This document shows positions 30,422-39,452 of a stretch of 41,486 nucleotides of DNA, in pieces. Below the pieces are notes generated by a model. It did no database searches and was not told the DNA's origin. It worked only from the letters and a program-made list of their open reading frames with translations. Numbering within the stretch: position 1 is the stretch's first letter; every line of letters starts with the position of its first letter. A program made the translations under genes and the position numbers. The DNA is from a bacterium (GTDB taxonomy: Bacteria > Sysuimicrobiota > Sysuimicrobiia > Sysuimicrobiales > Segetimicrobiaceae), in NCBI GenBank assembly GCA_035295165.1, contig DATGJN010000022.1, positions 1 through 41,486 on the forward strand, written 5' to 3'.

Positions 30422-30745
30422 TTACCTCGACCCGGCTCCGGCGGCGAGCGACTCCTCCACCCACGTGCGCACGGTCATCATCGCCGGGAAGCCGAGTGTG
30501 GTGACCGCGAGCAGGACCACGTGGCGGATCTCATCCGGCGTGGCGCCGGCCCGGAGCGCCAGCCTCACGTGCGCATGCGTGGCGCCCTCCATCTGCCGGC
30601 CGATCGCCATCGCGAGCTTCACGAACGCCCTGGTCTTCTCGTCGAGCGGCCCGGCGGCGTGCGCCGCCGCTCCCAGCCGGTCGTAGGCCTGCCAGACCGC
30701 GGGATAGGCATGCTTGAACTCCTCGTACGCGTTCGGTAACGCCAT
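30422..30745 (-). CDS. Carboxymuconolactone decarboxylase-family (AhpD-like) protein
   Basis: A 107-residue helical protein of the CMD/AhpD fold. The family core reads L-D-E-K-T-R-A-F-V-K-L-A-M-A-I-G, then E-G-A-T-H-A-H-V and A-G-A-T-P-D-E-I-R-H-V. AhpD-type peroxidase members carry C-x-x-C where this has no cysteine at all, so a thiol peroxidase role is excluded; a decarboxylase-like or unknown role remains. ATG 30745 has GAGGAGGT just upstream on the minus strand. It diverges from the molybdoenzyme operon. Confidence 0.85.
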   Translation of the reverse strand: MALPNAYEEFKHAYPAVWQAYDRLGAAAHAAGPLDEKTRAFVKLAMAIGRQMEGATHAHVRLALRAGATPDEIRHVVLLAVTTLGFPAMMTVRTWVEESLAAGAGSR

Positions 30746-30982: not shown

Positions 30983-33382
30983 GTGCAGACAATCACGAGG
31001 CGCAGGTTCCTCTGGCAGAGCGGGGTGACGGTCGGCGGATTGGTGGCTGCGCCGCTCGTCCGAGCGGTGCCGGGGAACGCGGCGGTCCCGGCGTCTGCCG
31101 GCACGCGCCTGAGCGTCGCGCACTGGGGATCGTTCACGGCTGAGGTGGCAAACGGCCGGTTCGTGCGTGCGCTGCCGTTCGCGAAGGATCCGTATCCGAA
31201 TCGCATGATCACGGCGATGCCGGACGTGCTGTACGCCCCGAACCGCATCAAGTACCCGATGATCCGGCAGGGGTTCTACCGGGACCGGTCGCGGAGCGAC
31301 ACAAACAAGCGGGGCGTCGAACCGTTCGTCCGCGTGTCGTGGGACGAGGCGCTCGACATCACAGCGGCCGAGTTGCGCCGGGTGAAGAGCCAGTACGGGA
31401 ACCGTGCCATCTATTCCGCGCAGGGCTGGCAGAGCCCCGGCAATTTTCACCCCGCGGGCTCCGCGGTCCAGCGTCTCCTCACGCTGTTCGGCGGGTACGT
31501 CTATCGCATCAATTCGTACAGCGCTCCGGTGTTGCCGGTGATCACCCCGCATGTGTTGGGCGACGCGGCGCCAAGGGCGTCGGTGTGGCCGGTGATCATC
31601 AAGAACAGCACGCTGGTGGTGTGCTTCGGGTACGATCCGCTTCGCAATGCTGAGATGCGCTCCGGCGGAAACGTCGGCCACTTCGACATGGAGTGGATAG
31701 CGCGGCTCCGTGACTCGAAGATTCCGGTCGTCTCGGTCAATCCGGTCGAGGGCGACACGGATCAGTACCTCCGGCCCGAGCGGATCGCCATTCGTCCAAA
31801 CACGGACACGGCGCTCATGCTGGGGCTTGCGCACGTCCTGTACACGGAGAATCTTCACGACAAGGACTTCCTCGCGAAGTATACGGTGGGGTTCGACCGG
31901 TTCGCCGAGTACCTGACCGGCAAGGCGGACGGTCAACCCAAGTCGCCGGAGTGGGCGGCGCCGCTCACGGATGTCCCGGCCGCCACGATCCGGACCCTCG
32001 CGCGGCGCATGGCCAAGTCGCGGACGATGTTGATGGGCGGGTATTCCCTGCAGCGAGCCTCGCACGGGGAACAACCGGTGTGGATGCTGATCACGCTGGC
32101 GGCGATGCTCGGGCAGATCGGGTTGCCCGGGGGAGGCCTGCAGTGTGACTTCCCCGGCGCGCTCGGCGTGCCGCTCGGCAGCGCCCCCGCGGTCCCGGGG
32201 CTGCCCACGGGGACGAACCCGGTGAAGGACTATGTGCCGCTGAACCAGTGGATCGACCTGCTGGCCAGCCCGGGCAAGACCGTCGACTACGACGGGCGGA
32301 AGATCACCTATCCCGACATCCGGCTCGTGTACTTGGCGGGGTCGAACCACTTTAACCAGGCGCAGTACACGAACCGCGTGATCCAGGCGTGGCGCCGCCC
32401 CGAAGTCACGATCGTGCACGATTACGTCTGGACATCGACCGCGAAACACGCCGACATCGTGCTGCCGGCGACGACGACGCTCGAGCGCAACGATATCCTC
32501 GGCACGGATCGCTTCATCATGGCGATGCAGCAGGTCGTGCCGCCGCTGTTCGAGGCGCGCGACGATTTCGCGATCTGCGCCGCGTTGGCCGAGCGCCTCG
32601 GGTTTGGGTCGCAGTTCACCGAGGGGAAGGACGAGATGGCGTGGCTCCGGCAGTTCTACGCGGCGGTTCAACAGCAGGGGAACGCCCGAGGACTCGACCT
32701 GCCCGACTTCGACACGTTCTGGCGGGGCGGGTACATCGAGTTCCCGGTGCCGGATCAGGCCAACCAGGTCGTCGCGTACGCGGACTTCCGGGCGGACCCG
32801 GCCAATCACGCGCTCGGCACCCCGTCGGGCAAGATTGAGATCTACTCCGACACGGTCGCGTCGTTCAAGTACGACGACGTGCCCGGACATGCGACCTGGC
32901 TTCCGCCGTCGGAGTGGCTCGGCAGCCCGCAGGCCGCGCAGTATCCGCTGCATCTCCTGTCCAGTCATCCGAAGGACCGGCTGCACTCGCAACTGGACGA
33001 GACTCGGCTGCGGCAGCGGTACGAGGTCGGGGCGCGCGAGCCGGTCTGGATCAGCCCGGCGGACGCCGCGGCGCGTGGGATCGCGAACGGCGACATCGTG
33101 CGGGTGTTCAACGGCCGCGGTCAGACTCTGGCCGGTGCGGTCGTGACGGCCCGGACGCGTCGCGGCGTCGTCGTGCTGAACGAGGGGGGATGGTACGATC
33201 CGCTGACGGCCGGCCTGCCAGGTACGCTGGACGGGCATGGAGACGTGAATGCGGTGAGCACGGACGCCCCAAGCTCGCGGATGTCCGGCGGCAACCCCAG
33301 CAACTCGATCTTGGTGCAGATCGAGAAGTACACGGGCGCGCCGCCGGCGGTGACGGCGTTTGCGCCGCCGCGGGGAGCCTAG
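30983..33382 (+). CDS. Periplasmic DMSO/TMAO reductase-family molybdoenzyme, paralogue 1 (TorA-like active site)
   Basis: A 799-residue bis-MGD molybdoenzyme of the DorA/TorA branch, which reduces S- or N-oxides in the periplasm. It starts with a Tat signal (T-R-R-R-F-L-W-Q). There is no N-terminal cysteine cluster motif, as expected for this branch. Ser180 in N-S-Y-S-A-P is the molybdenum ligand and Trp149 lies 31 residues before it, exactly the Trp116-Ser147 spacing of Rhodobacter DMSO reductase. The active-site Tyr of DMSO reductase is absent: the segment reads S-A-Q-G-W, one residue shorter, as in TorA. The C-terminal pterin-binding domain (G-I-A-N-G-D-I-V-R-V-F-N) is intact. GTG 30983 gives an N-terminus parallel to paralogue 2 and has an AAAGGGGG site. 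It heads the operon. Confidence 0.9.
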   Translation: MQTITRRRFLWQSGVTVGGLVAAPLVRAVPGNAAVPASAGTRLSVAHWGSFTAEVANGRFVRALPFAKDPYPNRMITAMPDVLYAPNRIKYPMIRQGFYRDRSRSDTNKRGVEPFVRVSWDEALDITAAELRRVKSQYGNRAIYSAQGWQSPGNFHPAGSAVQRLLTLFGGYVYRINSYSAPVLPVITPHVLGDAAPRASVWPVIIKNSTLVVCFGYDPLRNAEMRSGGNVGHFDMEWIARLRDSKIPVVSVNPVEGDTDQYLRPERIAIRPNTDTALMLGLAHVLYTENLHDKDFLAKYTVGFDRFAEYLTGKADGQPKSPEWAAPLTDVPAATIRTLARRMAKSRTMLMGGYSLQRASHGEQPVWMLITLAAMLGQIGLPGGGLQCDFPGALGVPLGSAPAVPGLPTGTNPVKDYVPLNQWIDLLASPGKTVDYDGRKITYPDIRLVYLAGSNHFNQAQYTNRVIQAWRRPEVTIVHDYVWTSTAKHADIVLPATTTLERNDILGTDRFIMAMQQVVPPLFEARDDFAICAALAERLGFGSQFTEGKDEMAWLRQFYAAVQQQGNARGLDLPDFDTFWRGGYIEFPVPDQANQVVAYADFRADPANHALGTPSGKIEIYSDTVASFKYDDVPGHATWLPPSEWLGSPQAAQYPLHLLSSHPKDRLHSQLDETRLRQRYEVGAREPVWISPADAAARGIANGDIVRVFNGRGQTLAGAVVTARTRRGVVVLNEGGWYDPLTAGLPGTLDGHGDVNAVSTDAPSSRMSGGNPSNSILVQIEKYTGAPPAVTAFAPPRGA

Positions 33383-33557
33383 CCCGGGCATAATACGCGC
33401 GGAGGGTGTCGATGGGGCGCTGCACCACCGCGGGCCGCCCTGCGCCGGGTGGCCCGCCTCGTGCGCGAACAGGACTACCAGCGGGCCTGGCGCCGGGCCA
33501 GAGCATGCGGCGCACTCGACCTGATCGCAAATCTGATCGCCATAGGGGAGGACGGAC

Positions 33558-35960
33558 ATGCAGACGTTGACAAGACGGGCACTACTGAAGCAGGGCGGCA
33601 TCGCCGTGGGCGGGCTCGTGGCGGCGCCGCTGATTCGGCTCGTGCCCGGGGCCGCGGCCGCTTCGGGGGGCACCACCGTGACGCGCCTGAACGCCGCGCA
33701 CTGGGGGGTGTTCACCGCAGACGTCGTCAACGGACGCGTGGTGCGGACGATGCCGTTTGCGGGGGATTCCAACCCGAACCGCATGGTCGCCGCGATCCCG
33801 GACATCCTCTATGCGCCGAACCGTATCAAATATCCGATGATCCGGCAGGGGTTCTACCGGGACCGGTCGCGGAGCGACACCACCAAGCGGGGGGCTGAGC
33901 CGTTCGTCCGCGTGTCGTGGGACGACGCGCTGGATCTCGTGGCGGGTGAGCTGCGCCGGGTGAAGAGCCAGTACGGCAACCGTGCGATCTATGGCGGCAG
34001 TTACGGGTGGCAGAGCCCCGGCAAGTTCAATGGCGCCACCCAAACGCTGCAGCGCTTGCTCGGCCTGTTCGGCGGGTATGTCTCGTATGTGAACACCTAC
34101 AGCGCACCGGTGCTGCCGGTGATCACCCCGCACGTGCTGGGCGATCCCCGTCCGCTCGCGTCGGCATGGACGACGATCGTGCAGAACAGCACCCTCGTCG
34201 TCCTGTTCGCCACCGATCCGCTAGTCACGGCCGAGATCGTGTCCGGGGACGGTCGGCACCTCGACAAGGGGTGGCTGACACAGTTGCGGGACAAGCGGAC
34301 TCCCGTGGTGTCGGTGAATCCCCTGGAGAGCGACACGGACCAGTACCTGAAGACCGAGCGGATCGCGATTCGTCCGAACACGGACACGGCACTCATGCTG
34401 GGGCTTGCGCACGTCCTGTACACGGAGAATCTCTACGACAAGGACTTCCTCGCGAAGTACACGGTGGGATTCGACCGGTTCGCCGACTACCTGACCGGTA
34501 AGGCCGACAACGAGCCGAAGTCGCCGGAGTGGGCCGCCGCGATTGCGGAGGTGCCGGCCGCAACGATCAGGACGCTCGCGCGCCGGATGGCGAAGTCGCG
34601 CACCGCGCTCGTCGGCGGGTTTTCCCTGCAGCGGGCCGCCTACGGTGAACAGCCGGTGTGGATGATGATCACCCTCTCGGCCATGCTCGGGCAGTTTGGG
34701 CTGCCGGGCGGAGGCGCCCAGGTCAACTTCCCGAGCGGTTTGGGGGCCCCGATCGGCAGCGCCCCCGGCGTGCCCGGGCTCGCCGCGGGCGCGAACCCGG
34801 TCAAGGACATCGTGCCGGTCAGCATGTGGGTGGACCTCCTGCTGAACCCCGGTAAGACGATCGACTACGACGGGCGGCAGATCACGTACCCGGACATCAA
34901 GCTGGTGTACTGGGCCGGCGGCAATCCGTTCCACCACTCGCAGAATACCAACCGCCTGGTCCAGGCGTGGCAGCGCCCGGAGGTTACGATCGTCCACGAC
35001 TTCGTCTGGACGGCGACGGCGAAACACGCGGACATCGTGCTCCCCGCCACGACGACGCTCGAGCGCAACGACCTTGTGGGGACGGACAAGTTCATCATCG
35101 CGATGCAGCAGGTCGTGCCGCCGCTGTTCGAGGCCCGCAACGATTTCGACATCTGTGCGGCGCTGGCGACACGGTTGGGCATCGGACCGCAGTTCACCGA
35201 GGGCAAGGACGAGATCGCCTGGCTGCGGCAGTTCTACGGCGCGGCACAACAGGCGGGGAAAGCCCGGGGGCTCACGCTGCCCGATTTTGACGCGTTCTGG
35301 CAGCGCGGCTATCTCGAGTTCGCGGTGCCGGATAGCTCGAACCAGGCGGTCGCATACGCGGGGTTCCGCGCCGATCCCGTCAACCGACCGCTCTCGACCC
35401 CGTCCGGCAAGATCGAGATCTACTCGGAGACGATCGCGTCGTTCAAGTACGATGATGTCCCGCCGCACCCGGCGTGGATCCCGCGGGCCGAATGGCTGGG
35501 CAGCCCGCTGGCGGCCCGATACCCGCTGCACTTGGTGACGCCGCATCCGAAAGACCGGCTGCATTCGCAACTGAACGAGACCGGGCTGCGTCGCCAATAC
35601 GAGGTGAGCGGCCGTGAGCCGATCTGGATCAACCCGGCGGACGCGGCGTCGCGCGGCATCGCAAACGGCGACATCGTGCGCGTGTTCAACGATCGGGGGC
35701 AGACACTGGCCGGGGCGGTGGTCACGGCGAGAACGCGTCGTGGGGTCGCGGCCATGCGGGAGGGAGGGTGGTACGATCCGCTCACGCCCGGTCAGGTGGG
35801 GACGCTGGACCGCCACGGCAATGTGAACATGGTCACGACCGACGCGCCGAGCTCCCGGTTGGCCGATGGGAACCCGTCGAACTCTTCGCTCGTTCAGGTG
35901 GAGAAGTACGTGGGCGCCCCGCCAGCGGTGACGGCATTCACGCCGCCGCCGGGAGCGTGA
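33558..35960 (+). CDS. Periplasmic DMSO/TMAO reductase-family molybdoenzyme, paralogue 2 (DorA-like active site)
   Basis: An 800-residue second copy with the Tat signal L-T-R-R-A-L-L-K. Its Mo ligand is Ser182 (N-T-Y-S-A-P) and Trp151 precedes it by 31 residues. Unlike paralogue 1 it keeps Tyr149 in G-G-S-Y-G-W, corresponding to Tyr114 of Rhodobacter DMSO reductase, two residues before the Trp as in that enzyme. The C-terminus V-E-K-Y-V-G-A-P-P-A-V-T-A-F resembles that of DorA. S-oxide reduction is therefore the closer guess for this copy and N-oxide reduction for the other. ATG 33558 follows GGGGAGG at good spacing. The chaperone gene starts 17 bp after its stop. Both paralogues have S-A-P after the tyrosine where DorA and TorA have S-T-G/A. 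Confidence 0.9.
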   Translation: MQTLTRRALLKQGGIAVGGLVAAPLIRLVPGAAAASGGTTVTRLNAAHWGVFTADVVNGRVVRTMPFAGDSNPNRMVAAIPDILYAPNRIKYPMIRQGFYRDRSRSDTTKRGAEPFVRVSWDDALDLVAGELRRVKSQYGNRAIYGGSYGWQSPGKFNGATQTLQRLLGLFGGYVSYVNTYSAPVLPVITPHVLGDPRPLASAWTTIVQNSTLVVLFATDPLVTAEIVSGDGRHLDKGWLTQLRDKRTPVVSVNPLESDTDQYLKTERIAIRPNTDTALMLGLAHVLYTENLYDKDFLAKYTVGFDRFADYLTGKADNEPKSPEWAAAIAEVPAATIRTLARRMAKSRTALVGGFSLQRAAYGEQPVWMMITLSAMLGQFGLPGGGAQVNFPSGLGAPIGSAPGVPGLAAGANPVKDIVPVSMWVDLLLNPGKTIDYDGRQITYPDIKLVYWAGGNPFHHSQNTNRLVQAWQRPEVTIVHDFVWTATAKHADIVLPATTTLERNDLVGTDKFIIAMQQVVPPLFEARNDFDICAALATRLGIGPQFTEGKDEIAWLRQFYGAAQQAGKARGLTLPDFDAFWQRGYLEFAVPDSSNQAVAYAGFRADPVNRPLSTPSGKIEIYSETIASFKYDDVPPHPAWIPRAEWLGSPLAARYPLHLVTPHPKDRLHSQLNETGLRRQYEVSGREPIWINPADAASRGIANGDIVRVFNDRGQTLAGAVVTARTRRGVAAMREGGWYDPLTPGQVGTLDRHGNVNMVTTDAPSSRLADGNPSNSSLVQVEKYVGAPPAVTAFTPPPGA

Positions 35961-35977
35961 CAGCGCGGAGGGGCCAG

Positions 35978-36685
35978 ATGAGTCGTGACCTGCAGGACGC
36001 CGGCGCTCCCGGGACGGAGGAGCGGGCGGCGCTCTACGCCACGCTGTCCGGGGTCTTTGCGCGCGAACTCACCCAGGAAGGGTGGGCGCGCCTGTGTAAT
36101 ACGAGTACGCGAGAGTCGTTACGGGAGCTCGCGGTCGACTGCGGCATCGAGGCGGAGGCCACGGCGCTGCTGCAGTGCCTTGCGGCGGCCGACGGTCAGG
36201 ATCCCGCGGCGACGGTGGAGGAGCTCGCGGTGGACTACGCCCGGCTGTTCATCGGACCTGGGCCGGGGCTCGCGCCGCCGTATGAGTCCGTCTACACTAC
36301 CCCGACCCGCCGATTCTACGGGGAAGCACTGTCCCAGATTTCCGAGTTGCTGCGGAGCGAGGGCATCCAGGTCGGGGAAGAGTTCGGCGCGCCGGCGGAC
36401 CACCTCGCGGTCGAGTTGGCGATCATGCGGTATCTGGTCGAACGGGGCGAGGCGCGCGGCGGGGAGCGCGACCCGGTTCAGGCTGCGGAATGGCGGCGCC
36501 AGCTGGAGTTTCTCGAGGGGCACCTGCTGCCGTGGGTGCCCCGGTGGGCGGCGGATGTTGAGCGCGCCGGCGCAACGGACTTCTACCGCGCCGCCGCCGG
36601 GATGCTCGAGGGTTATCTCCGGCGTGATCAGACCTGGCTTCGTCGTGCGCTCGCTGGTCCCGCGGGGCAACACGTCGACGGGTAA
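35978..36685 (+). CDS. TorD-family molybdoenzyme chaperone
   Basis: A 235-residue all-helical cytoplasmic protein of the TorD/DmsD/NarJ family, which holds the apo-molybdoenzyme until cofactor insertion and guards its Tat signal. Features are R-A-A-L-Y-A-T-L-S-G-V-F near the N-terminus, D-Y-A-R-L-F-I-G-P-G and P-P-Y-E-S-V-Y in the middle (the family E-P-x-D-H region follows as A-P-A-D-H-L-A-V-E-L), and F-L-E-G-H-L-L-P-W-V-P near the end. ATG 35978 has GGAGGGG upstream. It lies directly after the two Tat-dependent molybdoenzymes and presumably serves both. A longer open frame upstream overlaps paralogue 2 and is not coding. Confidence 0.9.
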   Translation: MSRDLQDAGAPGTEERAALYATLSGVFARELTQEGWARLCNTSTRESLRELAVDCGIEAEATALLQCLAAADGQDPAATVEELAVDYARLFIGPGPGLAPPYESVYTTPTRRFYGEALSQISELLRSEGIQVGEEFGAPADHLAVELAIMRYLVERGEARGGERDPVQAAEWRRQLEFLEGHLLPWVPRWAADVERAGATDFYRAAAGMLEGYLRRDQTWLRRALAGPAGQHVDG

Positions 36686-36736
36686 GCGCATCACCGGAGC
36701 GCGGAGGGGCGACACTACGTGAAGGGAGCCGTGCGC

Positions 36737-37441
36737 ATGACGGTAGGGAAGCGATGGGCCGTTCTGACGATGGTCGTGGCCGCGGTCGGGCTCGTGGGGT
36801 CAAGCGCGGGGTGGATGGAGTCGGCCGGAAGGGCGGACGCCTCTGCTCGCGCCAATGCGACGGGAGCGACGCCGGTTGCCACGGCCGCGCCGCTCCTGGC
36901 GGCAGCGGCGCCCGCTGCGGCGGGGAAGACGGCCTACACTGCCGGAACGGCCCAACTCCGAAAGGACCCCGGCGGGGCCGTCGTCGGCACGCTGACTCCC
37001 GGCACGCCGGTGTCGGTGACCGAAAGCCGGGGAACCGACGCGCACGTGAGTGTGCAGGGGTGGTCAGCGGCGGGCAGCAACACCGTCGTGGCCGCAGTCG
37101 GCGTGCGCATCGCGCTGGCCAATTTGAGCGCGCCCGATCAGGCGCAGCGGCAGACCGGTTCGCAGACGAAGGACAGTTACGGAACCGTCTGGACGCAGGT
37201 CACAATCAGCGGGTGGGTGGCTGCCAACGCGCTCACCGCGGACGTGCAGACGGTGTGGACACACGGGCGCCAGGTGTACGAGGCGCACTGCAGCACGTGT
37301 CACTCGCTCTACGCCACGGACCAATACACCGCCAACCAATGGCCCGGCAATATTCAGAACATGGCCGATCGCGCGGGGCTGAGCGGGGATGATCTCTCCC
37401 TCGTGTTGAAGTATTTGCAAACACACGCGAAAGCGCAGTAG
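36737..37441 (+). CDS. Mono-haem cytochrome c with SH3-like domain, resembling the C-terminal part of TorC/DorC
   Basis: A 234-residue exported cytochrome with an N-terminal hydrophobic helix (signal or anchor), an Ala-rich linker, an SH3-like beta domain (about residues 70-175) and one haem site C185-S-T-C-H189. Met209 in N-Q-W-P-G-N-I-Q-N-M is the likely second axial ligand. The haem domain and the preceding W-V-A-A-N-A-L segment resemble, from memory of the family, the C-terminal mono-haem region of TorC-type cytochromes, which hands electrons to TorA. The tetrahaem NapC-like half of TorC is missing. ATG 36737 (AAGGGAG 8 nt upstream) is chosen; GTG 36719 is in frame and possible. It lies between the chaperone and the Rieske gene and is the natural shuttle to the molybdoenzymes. 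Confidence 0.8.
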   Translation: MTVGKRWAVLTMVVAAVGLVGSSAGWMESAGRADASARANATGATPVATAAPLLAAAAPAAAGKTAYTAGTAQLRKDPGGAVVGTLTPGTPVSVTESRGTDAHVSVQGWSAAGSNTVVAAVGVRIALANLSAPDQAQRQTGSQTKDSYGTVWTQVTISGWVAANALTADVQTVWTHGRQVYEAHCSTCHSLYATDQYTANQWPGNIQNMADRAGLSGDDLSLVLKYLQTHAKAQ

Positions 37442-37521
37442 CGGGCTACGCGCCTCGGGCAGACCTGGCGGGCGTCGGGCCGGCCGCGCGCGAGATTTGG
37501 GCAACGAGGAGGCGGGATTGC

Positions 37522-38073
37522 ATGGCGCAGGATGAGCCCCAGGAGGGTCGATCGACTCGGCGTCAGGCTGTGATGACGGCGCTCGGTGCGATCGTGGGAT
37601 TTATCTCGGCCGCGCTCGTCGTCCCCCTGGTCGTCTTCCTGTTCGGTCCCGCCGTTCGCGGCAAGTCGTCGTGGGGGCTATTGGGGCGGTCCATTCCGCC
37701 GACCCCGCGGTCGCGCGAGCCGTGGGTGCGCGTCGGCGACCTCGGACCGATGCCGCAGGGCGACGCGGTCCTCACGACCGTGCGCCTGCCGGTGCAGGAA
37801 GGATGGATCCAATCGGACATGCCGGTGACCGTCTACGTCCGGCGGTCCGGACCGGACAGCGCCACGATCTATGACATCCACTGCACGCACATGGGGTGCC
37901 CGGTGCGCTGGAATCAAGCCGCGGGGCGGTTCCTGTGCCCCTGTCACGGCGGCGTGTTTGACGGTGACGGGCACGTTCTCTCGGGGCCTCCGCCACGCCC
38001 CTTGGACCGCTACGCGGTCAAGGTGGACGCAGGCGTGCTGTACATGGGCGCCCTCGAACTGCCGGGGACCTAG
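37522..38073 (+). CDS. Rieske iron-sulfur protein of a cytochrome bc complex
   Basis: A 183-residue membrane-anchored Rieske protein. The N-terminus has a Tat-like S-T-R-R-Q-A-V-M followed by one hydrophobic helix (about residues 20-42). The 2Fe-2S cluster is bound by C121-T-H123-M-G-C126 and C139-P-C141-H142-G-G, with C126 and C141 forming the usual disulfide. It takes electrons from quinol at the Qo site and passes them to a c-type haem. ATG 37522 is preceded by GAGGAGG. The stop is 2 bp before the cytochrome b start, so the two are translationally coupled. It follows the mono-haem cytochrome by 80 bp, probably in the same operon. Confidence 0.93.
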   Translation: MAQDEPQEGRSTRRQAVMTALGAIVGFISAALVVPLVVFLFGPAVRGKSSWGLLGRSIPPTPRSREPWVRVGDLGPMPQGDAVLTTVRLPVQEGWIQSDMPVTVYVRRSGPDSATIYDIHCTHMGCPVRWNQAAGRFLCPCHGGVFDGDGHVLSGPPPRPLDRYAVKVDAGVLYMGALELPGT

Positions 38074-38075
38074 CG

Positions 38076-39452
38076 ATGTGGCGTCGAGCGGTCGCGTGGG
38101 TGGACGAGCGGTTGAACGTGATGCCGCTGTGGCACGGCTTCCTTGACCGGAAGGTGCCGAAAGGCATCGGATGGTTCCATGTCTTCGGCAGTGCGACGTT
38201 GTTCCTTCTCGTGCTCCAGTTCGCGACCGGGATCTTTCTGACGGTCTACTACGCACCGTCCACCGAGCACGCGTACGAGAGCATCAAGTTCATCAACGAG
38301 CAGGTCCCGTTCGGCAAGTACGTGGCCGGCATCCACCTGTGGTCCGCCAGCATACTCGTCGTCGTCATCGGCGTGCACATGCTCCGGACGTTCGCCTACG
38401 GCGCCTACAAGTACCCGCGCGAAACCACGTGGATCACCGGCGTGGTGCTGCTGTTCCTGGTGCTGGCCTTTGCGTTTACTGGGTATCTGCTGCCGTATGA
38501 TCAGAAGGCGTATTGGGCGACCGTCGTCGGCACGAACATCGCCGGTGCCGGGCCGTTCGTCGGCGACTGGGCGCTGCGCGTGCTGCGCGGCGGGACGGCG
38601 GTCGGCGCGCTCACGCTGCAGCGCTTCTACGCATTTCACATCTGGCTGCTGCCGGCGGCACTCGCGCTCTTCGTGGCGGCGCACCTCTTCATGGTGATCC
38701 GTCAGGGCATCGCCGCTCCTCCGCGCCGTCGGCCGCTCGACCTCGGCGCCGACGCGGCCGGGCTGCCTCGGCGAGAGGTGTACGAGCGGCAGTACGCGAT
38801 GGAGAAGCAGGCCGGGCACCCATTCTACGTCTCGATCCTGAAGGACGCGGTGTTTGCCCTCTTGCTGTTTCTTGCGGTCTCGGCCCTGGCGCTGACCCTC
38901 GGCACCCCGCTGGAGCCGCCCGCCAATCCCAATGCGACGACGTACGTGCCGCGCCCGGAGTGGTATTTCCTCGACTTCTTCCAGCTGCTCTGGTATCTGC
39001 AAGGGCAGTGGGAACCGCTCGGGATCTTCCTCATCGTGCTCGGGGTCGTGCTGGTGTTGTTGCTGCTGCCGTTCTACGATCGCTCGCCGGAGCGACATCC
39101 GGTCCGCCGGCCGATCGCAATGGCGTCCGCGGTGATCGCCATCGTCGCGGTGATGGGGCTCACGTACCTCGGCGCGCGCTCGCCCGGGTCGGCCCCGGCG
39201 CCTGCGGCGGCGGGCGGCGCAGCGGTTCCCCCGGGCGCGCGCGAGTTCCAAACCCAGGGGTGCGCCGGCTGCCACACGATCGCGGGGGTGGGGGGCACGG
39301 CCGGACCCAACCTGTCCCACATCGGCGGCCTCCTCACGCGGGCGCAGCTGCAGACGACGATTCTGAACGGCGCAACTGGGATGCCGGCGTTTTCGCACAT
39401 CAGCCCGGAGGCCCTAAACGCCTTACTGAACTATCTCGAGTCCCTGAAATGA
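38076..39452 (+). CDS. Cytochrome b (b6 plus subunit IV) fused to a cytochrome c domain
   Basis: A 458-residue subunit joining three parts. Residues 1-220 are a four-helix cytochrome b6-like part with b-haem ligands in helix 2 (I-H-L-W to V-H-M, 13 residues between the histidines) and helix 4 (F-H-I-W to A-H-L, 14 residues between). Residues 220-345 are subunit-IV-like, with the Qo motif P294-E-W-Y-F-L299. After another membrane helix, residues 380-458 form a mono-haem domain with C396-A-G-C-H400 and G-M-P-A-F for the Met ligand. The 14-residue spacing in helix 4 is the b6f-type value. Such fusions replace a separate cytochrome c1. Together with the Rieske protein it is a complete quinol:cytochrome c module next to the molybdoenzymes. 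Confidence 0.93.
   Translation: MWRRAVAWVDERLNVMPLWHGFLDRKVPKGIGWFHVFGSATLFLLVLQFATGIFLTVYYAPSTEHAYESIKFINEQVPFGKYVAGIHLWSASILVVVIGVHMLRTFAYGAYKYPRETTWITGVVLLFLVLAFAFTGYLLPYDQKAYWATVVGTNIAGAGPFVGDWALRVLRGGTAVGALTLQRFYAFHIWLLPAALALFVAAHLFMVIRQGIAAPPRRRPLDLGADAAGLPRREVYERQYAMEKQAGHPFYVSILKDAVFALLLFLAVSALALTLGTPLEPPANPNATTYVPRPEWYFLDFFQLLWYLQGQWEPLGIFLIVLGVVLVLLLLPFYDRSPERHPVRRPIAMASAVIAIVAVMGLTYLGARSPGSAPAPAAAGGAAVPPGAREFQTQGCAGCHTIAGVGGTAGPNLSHIGGLLTRAQLQTTILNGATGMPAFSHISPEALNALLNYLESLK

Follow-up and report, generated by a model that had tools for sequence, protein, structure and literature searches.

The window analyzed here is a stretch of 41,486 nucleotides (positions 1 to 41,486, forward strand, of contig DATGJN010000022.1, GenBank assembly GCA_035295165.1) from a bacterium of the family Segetimicrobiaceae in the phylum Sysuimicrobiota. 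The system in question is a putative operon of six genes that occupies 30983-39452 of the window, and all six were confirmed to be present on the plus strand. They encode two enzymes of the dimethyl sulfoxide (DMSO)/trimethylamine N-oxide (TMAO) reductase family with signals for twin-arginine translocation (Tat), a chaperone, a small cytochrome c, and the Rieske and cytochrome b-c proteins of a quinol-oxidizing (bc) complex. In operon order, the genes are as follows:

30983-33382, plus strand: dorA1, Tat-exported molybdoenzyme of the DMSO/TMAO reductase family (GTG start, TRRRFL Tat motif; TIGR00509, E 2e-291; 1eu1, E 1e-230)
33558-35960, plus strand: dorA2, Tat-exported molybdoenzyme of the DMSO reductase family (TRRALL Tat motif; TIGR00509, E 1e-297; 1eu1, E 9e-242)
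35978-36685, plus strand: torD, TorD-type chaperone of 235 amino acids (NF003442 TorD, E 1e-35; Pfam Nitrate_red_del, E 5e-31)
36719-37441, plus strand: torB-like mono-haem cytochrome c with one CXXCH motif, CSTCH (TIGR02162, E 1e-32; BLAST match to E. coli TorC)
37522-38073, plus strand: Rieske iron-sulphur protein, apparently of the menaquinol type (Pfam Rieske, E 2e-9; motifs CTHMGC...CPCHGG and CPCHGGVF)
38076-39452, plus strand: fusion of cytochrome b6, subunit IV and a mono-haem cytochrome c domain (Pfam and NCBIfam matches; cytochrome b6 of PDB entry 1vf5, E 4e-49)

A first-pass annotation, made from the sequence of the window alone, had listed these six genes as lying on one strand with short gaps. 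This inventory was borne out by family matches far beyond chance and by intergenic gaps of only 2 to 175 bases (175, 17, 33, 80 and 2 bases in operon order). The G+C content is even over the six genes (0.67-0.70, compared to 0.70 for the contig), and scans for promoters and terminators gave no informative signal. A longer open reading frame would place the start of torD at 35768, but this start is unlikely because it overlaps dorA2, and the ATG at 35978 is favoured.

Both DorA1 and DorA2 align with the Rhodobacter sphaeroides DMSO reductase (1eu1) across nearly the full mature length, and their scores against the bisC_fam model TIGR00509 (968.6 and 989.6 bits, over 46-797) are slightly under its curated cut-off of 1017.55. 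The serine ligand of the molybdenum is kept in both proteins, as judged by alignment with E. coli TorA and, for DorA2, with the R. sphaeroides enzyme. Tyr114 is a mark of the DMSO reductase type that is missing in the TMAO reductase type. Its equivalent is present in DorA2 (GGSYGW) and missing in DorA1 (SAQ-GW), as it is in E. coli TorA (TAS-GW). From this alignment pattern, the pair may be split between TMAO-like and DMSO-like substrates.

In terms of its closest relationship, the mono-haem cytochrome corresponds to the end of TorC. The torC model TIGR02162 matches it only at model positions 198-380 of 387, and by BLAST it aligns to residues 225-375 of E. coli TorC, the stretch that holds the fifth haem only. 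This agrees with the first-pass reading of the protein as the C-terminal-like half of TorC, and with a single CXXCH the protein lacks the NapC-like N-terminal half of a pentahaem TorC or DorC. C191, C194, H195 and M215 are invariant in the alignment of the cytochrome. Its AlphaFold model has a mean pLDDT (predicted local distance difference test) of 77.6, and a PDB fold search with the model gave no meaningful match. The genome (G000; genomes and loci are given by G and L numbers) holds one intact cytochrome of this TorC-tail type. A decayed fragment of a second one, with an in-frame TAG, lies on another contig (G000:C2:2654-2809, L149) and resembles a copy that is linked to a third reductase, DorA3, in sister species.

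The genome was also searched for a NapC/TorC-type quinol donor, a check that had been proposed together with the idea of a chain lacking such a donor. PF03264, the sole profile used, was positive in the E. coli control but had no match in this genome (97.9% complete); this result agrees with the proposed chain. The same profile found no such donor in the 12 family genomes, and the 10 positive genomes among 43 of the order all belong to other families. The quinone genes looked at were MenD, which is present, and the futalosine enzyme MqnA, which was searched for in the genome and not found; because of this pattern, menaquinone is likely made by the classical route. That menaquinol dehydrogenases of another type, for example a NapGH-like or other membrane protein, feed the cytochrome with no part for the bc complex is very improbable: while PF03264 covers only the NapC/TorC type, no gene of another type was recognized near the operons seen, and the bc module is the sole membrane quinol oxidase in the operon.

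The features expected of a Rieske/cytochrome b complex were all found, namely four b-haem histidines (likely H87, H101, H188 and H203), the PEWY Qo motif, the CTHxGC and CPCHG motifs of the Rieske protein, and an attached cytochrome c. The fusion protein matches Cytochrome_B (E 5e-50) and carries a CBB3-type cytochrome c domain. In ubiquinol enzymes, hydrogen bonds from a serine and a tyrosine raise the potential of the Rieske center. Since this Ser/Tyr pair is missing from the aligned CPCHGGVF motif, the Rieske protein fits the low-potential menaquinol type. Cytochrome b6, subunit IV, Rieske protein and attached c domain are those of the b6-type menaquinol:cytochrome c reductases; those enzymes consist of a Rieske protein, b6 and a subunit IV-c protein, whereas b6, IV and c form a single polypeptide here.

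Including the operon copy, the genome has four genes for cytochromes b of this family. A second Rieske/b-c fusion pair with the same b6-IV-c layout is located on contig C3 near one of the three COX1 genes of the genome, and this complex is likely the aerobic one. The first-pass annotation had named a case that would speak against its own idea, in which the operon complex is the only one of its kind and serves aerobic respiration; the second complex beside COX1 shows a different situation. In the tree, the operon-type bc genes of this genome and of the sister species group apart from the oxidase-linked bc genes. Besides a Rieske protein and a dihaem cytochrome c, a further locus (G000:C118, L050:4606-9122, minus strand) encodes two split cytochromes b, one of which has a two-[4Fe-4S] ferredoxin-like domain at its end. 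Many genomes of the order have cytochrome b matches in tandem.

The bc genes also bear on the direction of electron flow. DorA1 and DorA2 might instead oxidize a reduced substrate and pass the electrons through the mono-haem cytochrome to a terminal oxidase. The family is widened in this genome (eight paralogues), and the three COX1 genes could supply the oxidase. Nevertheless, this arrangement is very improbable, as the two enzymes have full-length homology to reductases and keep the serine ligand, their partner cytochrome is of the TorC type, and a bc complex would be pointless for electrons that arrive at the level of cytochrome c. The reverse direction that the first-pass annotation had allowed for, with electrons from substrate oxidation entering the bc complex or an oxidase, was judged unlikely on this last ground.

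Conservation was examined in two sister species of the same genus (G026 and G027) and in a member of another genus of the family (G025). Both sister species have a dorA-torD-torB operon and, separately, a second cluster in which dorA3 and the gene for a DoxX-like membrane protein are combined with another TorC-tail cytochrome, a Rieske gene and a b-c fusion. The identity to the operon genes is 75% for the Rieske protein and 84% (G027) or 83% (G026) for the fusion. The reductases upstream of bc in G027 and G026 score 1051 and 1038 bits with TIGR00509, so that DorA3 exceeds the cut-off (1038.3). Because both sister species have their orthologous bc genes next to DorA3 and this additional TorC-tail cytochrome, the bc genes are, on this comparison of gene neighborhoods, linked with this kind of reductase/TorC-tail system. 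The DoxX-like gene (L056:3107-3754, plus strand; L053:8625-9224, minus strand) has dorA3 on one side and the second TorC-tail cytochrome on the other. In G026, cytochrome bd oxidase genes (L055:8955-11323, minus strand) follow dorA-torD-cytochrome on the same strand, past a small gene on the opposite strand.

In G027, both clusters are on one contig in the same orientation, approximately 18 kb apart, with an insertion-sequence-like gene within the second cluster. The simplest history would be that the two reductase clusters were joined, and dorA3 was then lost, in the lineage of the window. The gap between torB and the Rieske gene is 80 bases here and 79 in G026, but a precise recombination at this gap remains a guess, since no convincing alignment of the intergenic sequences was obtained. 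A divergent gene for a carboxymuconolactone decarboxylase/AhpD-like protein (30422-30745, minus strand; PF02627, E 1e-15) precedes the operon in the window, and each of the three species of the genus has such an AhpD-like gene adjoining its reductase clusters, with the homologues of the sister species next to dorA3 or torB (L053:12168-12494 and L055:11720-12046, both plus strand).

Taken together, these data indicate, with good though incomplete confidence, that the operon is a self-contained proton-motive module for N- or S-oxide respiration that is fed by its own bc complex. Menaquinol would be oxidized by the Rieske/cytochrome b part via a Q cycle, and the electron would pass to the fused cytochrome c domain and then to the small TorC-tail cytochrome, which would deliver it, outside the membrane, to the bis-molybdopterin guanine dinucleotide (bis-MGD) site of either DorA1 or DorA2. 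TorD would mature both reductases ahead of Tat export. TMAO and DMSO respiration is usually taught as non-energy-conserving at the quinol step, to which Campylobacter, with a bc complex in shared use, is an exception. In the proposed chain, the bc complex and the TorC-tail cytochrome would do the job of TorC and conserve energy as well, and N-/S-oxide respiration in this organism is probably energy-conserving. We infer from the genes that all six are transcribed together, in which direction and order the electrons flow, that protons are translocated, and which substrates are used.

The first-pass annotation had reasoned that the bc module replaces the NapC half of TorC. Part of this reasoning is supported: NapC/TorC is absent by profile from this genome and the 12 of the family, the TorC tail stands alone, the bc complex is complete with a Rieske protein of low-potential type, and bc genes are tied to such reductases in two sister species. 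As for the NapC half, it may have been lost or may never have been present. Other results weigh against the reading. The exact six-gene order, which that annotation had suggested searching for across genomes, was seen only in this genome, the dorA-torD-torB operons of G026 and G027 have no adjoining bc genes, and the Rieske/bc pair of the window could have its own promoter. In addition, G025 has orthologues of the Rieske protein (63%) and the b-c fusion (70%) but lacks both bisC-type reductases and TorC-tail cytochromes. These bc genes can thus serve something else, and the bc clade is older than, or separable from, its link with the reductases.

The pair in G025 also fits a second general quinol:cytochrome c reductase that lies downstream of the reductases by chance and feeds the oxidases, with the mono-haem cytochrome as a general carrier and the reductases using any bc complex. 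Three COX1 genes would give such a complex an outlet, and the Qcr complex of Campylobacter jejuni is common to oxygen, nitrate and TMAO (PMC6195509). This explanation is rather unlikely, because an oxidase-linked bc complex exists elsewhere in the genome, no oxidase gene adjoins the operon pair, and each of the three species of the genus has the bc pair downstream of a reductase and a TorC-tail cytochrome.

The dedicated module can be compared with known systems. Like E. coli torCAD and Rhodobacter dorCDA, it combines a reductase, a TorD chaperone and the C-terminal cytochrome domain, but the tetrahaem NapC-like half is missing from both the gene and the genome, and bc would oxidize quinol instead. 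The closer parallel is C. jejuni, where deletion of qcrABC abolishes TMAO and nitrate reduction (Garg et al. 2018, PMC6195509). That study noted the homology of TorB (Cj0265) to the C-terminus of TorC and proposed the same chain, with a net H+/2e of 2 (PMC6195509). Shared with TorA (Cj0264), TorB and QcrABC are a TorA-type enzyme, a standalone mono-haem TorC-tail cytochrome linked to the reductase (the likeness to Cj0265 is by description), the lack of NapC/TorC, and bc as the quinol oxidizer, with menaquinol as the likely donor here. In C. jejuni, however, qcrABC (cj1186c-1184c) lies apart from torAB, QcrC is dihaem, and the complex is in shared use; here the bc copy is in the operon as a b6-IV-c fusion with a mono-haem c domain, there are two reductases, and the phylum is a different one. 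The chain is not new in principle, since C. jejuni TorA/TorB/QcrABC works in this way (PMC6195509), and the idea of the first-pass annotation is an independent rediscovery of that mechanism. What is new is that the bc module is a dedicated one encoded within the operon, in a phylum other than that of C. jejuni, and that the genome pairs eight reductase paralogues with a single intact cytochrome of the TorC-tail type. No description of a TorA/TorB/Rieske/cytochrome b operon was found in a literature search that had most subscription journals outside its reach.

A wider survey for TorC-tail cytochromes covered 385 genomes of the class of G043, a proteobacterial metagenome-assembled genome that holds locus L002. 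The strong matches were pentahaem TorC/DorC, DorA-cytochrome fusions, or, in G043 itself, standalone mono-haem proteins, and no match to the Rieske protein or cytochrome b of the window was found within 1.5 kb at any fetched locus. G043 (L150-L153) has three standalone mono-haem TorC-tail cytochromes, each adjoining a DorA-type gene, and a multi-haem TorC-like gene that is cut by the locus end. Four loci of the class (L159, L160, L172 and L173) encode DMSO-reductase-family proteins with a TorC-tail-like mono-haem domain fused at the C-terminus. In a plasmid collection, TorC-tail matches were only partial, and the annotated ones were NapC/NirT-family or other c-type cytochromes.

The eight bisC-family genes of the genome are distributed over contigs C2, C22, C96, C103 and C104 (L127-L130). 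Tat-like starts are present in seven of the eight; the C103 copy groups with signal-less enzymes. The two C2 paralogues form a long-branched group of their own, and most of the others represent a genus-level expansion. No CXXCH gene was found in the flanks fetched for the six non-operon paralogues; contig ends cut short two of these flanks. Because the genome has a single intact TorC-tail cytochrome, the operon is a good candidate for an electron hub. In this tentative and somewhat doubtful extension, one bc complex and one cytochrome would feed seven Tat-exported DorA-type reductases, the operon enzymes and orphan paralogues alike, and the operon itself would be the product of a fusion between neighboring reductase clusters like the two that are still separate in G027.

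In summary, proton-motive N-/S-oxide respiration in this bacterium is well supported at the genomic level. If an operon with its own bc complex works in this way in an unrelated phylum, proton-motive oxide respiration would have evolved more widely, and the TorC tail would serve as a portable adaptor for various quinol-oxidizing partners to which it can dock. For annotation, a standalone TorC-tail cytochrome in a genome that lacks NapC would suggest a bc complex as the donor. Should the operon also act as a hub, members of an uncultured soil phylum would have a broad N-/S-oxide respiration that conserves energy.

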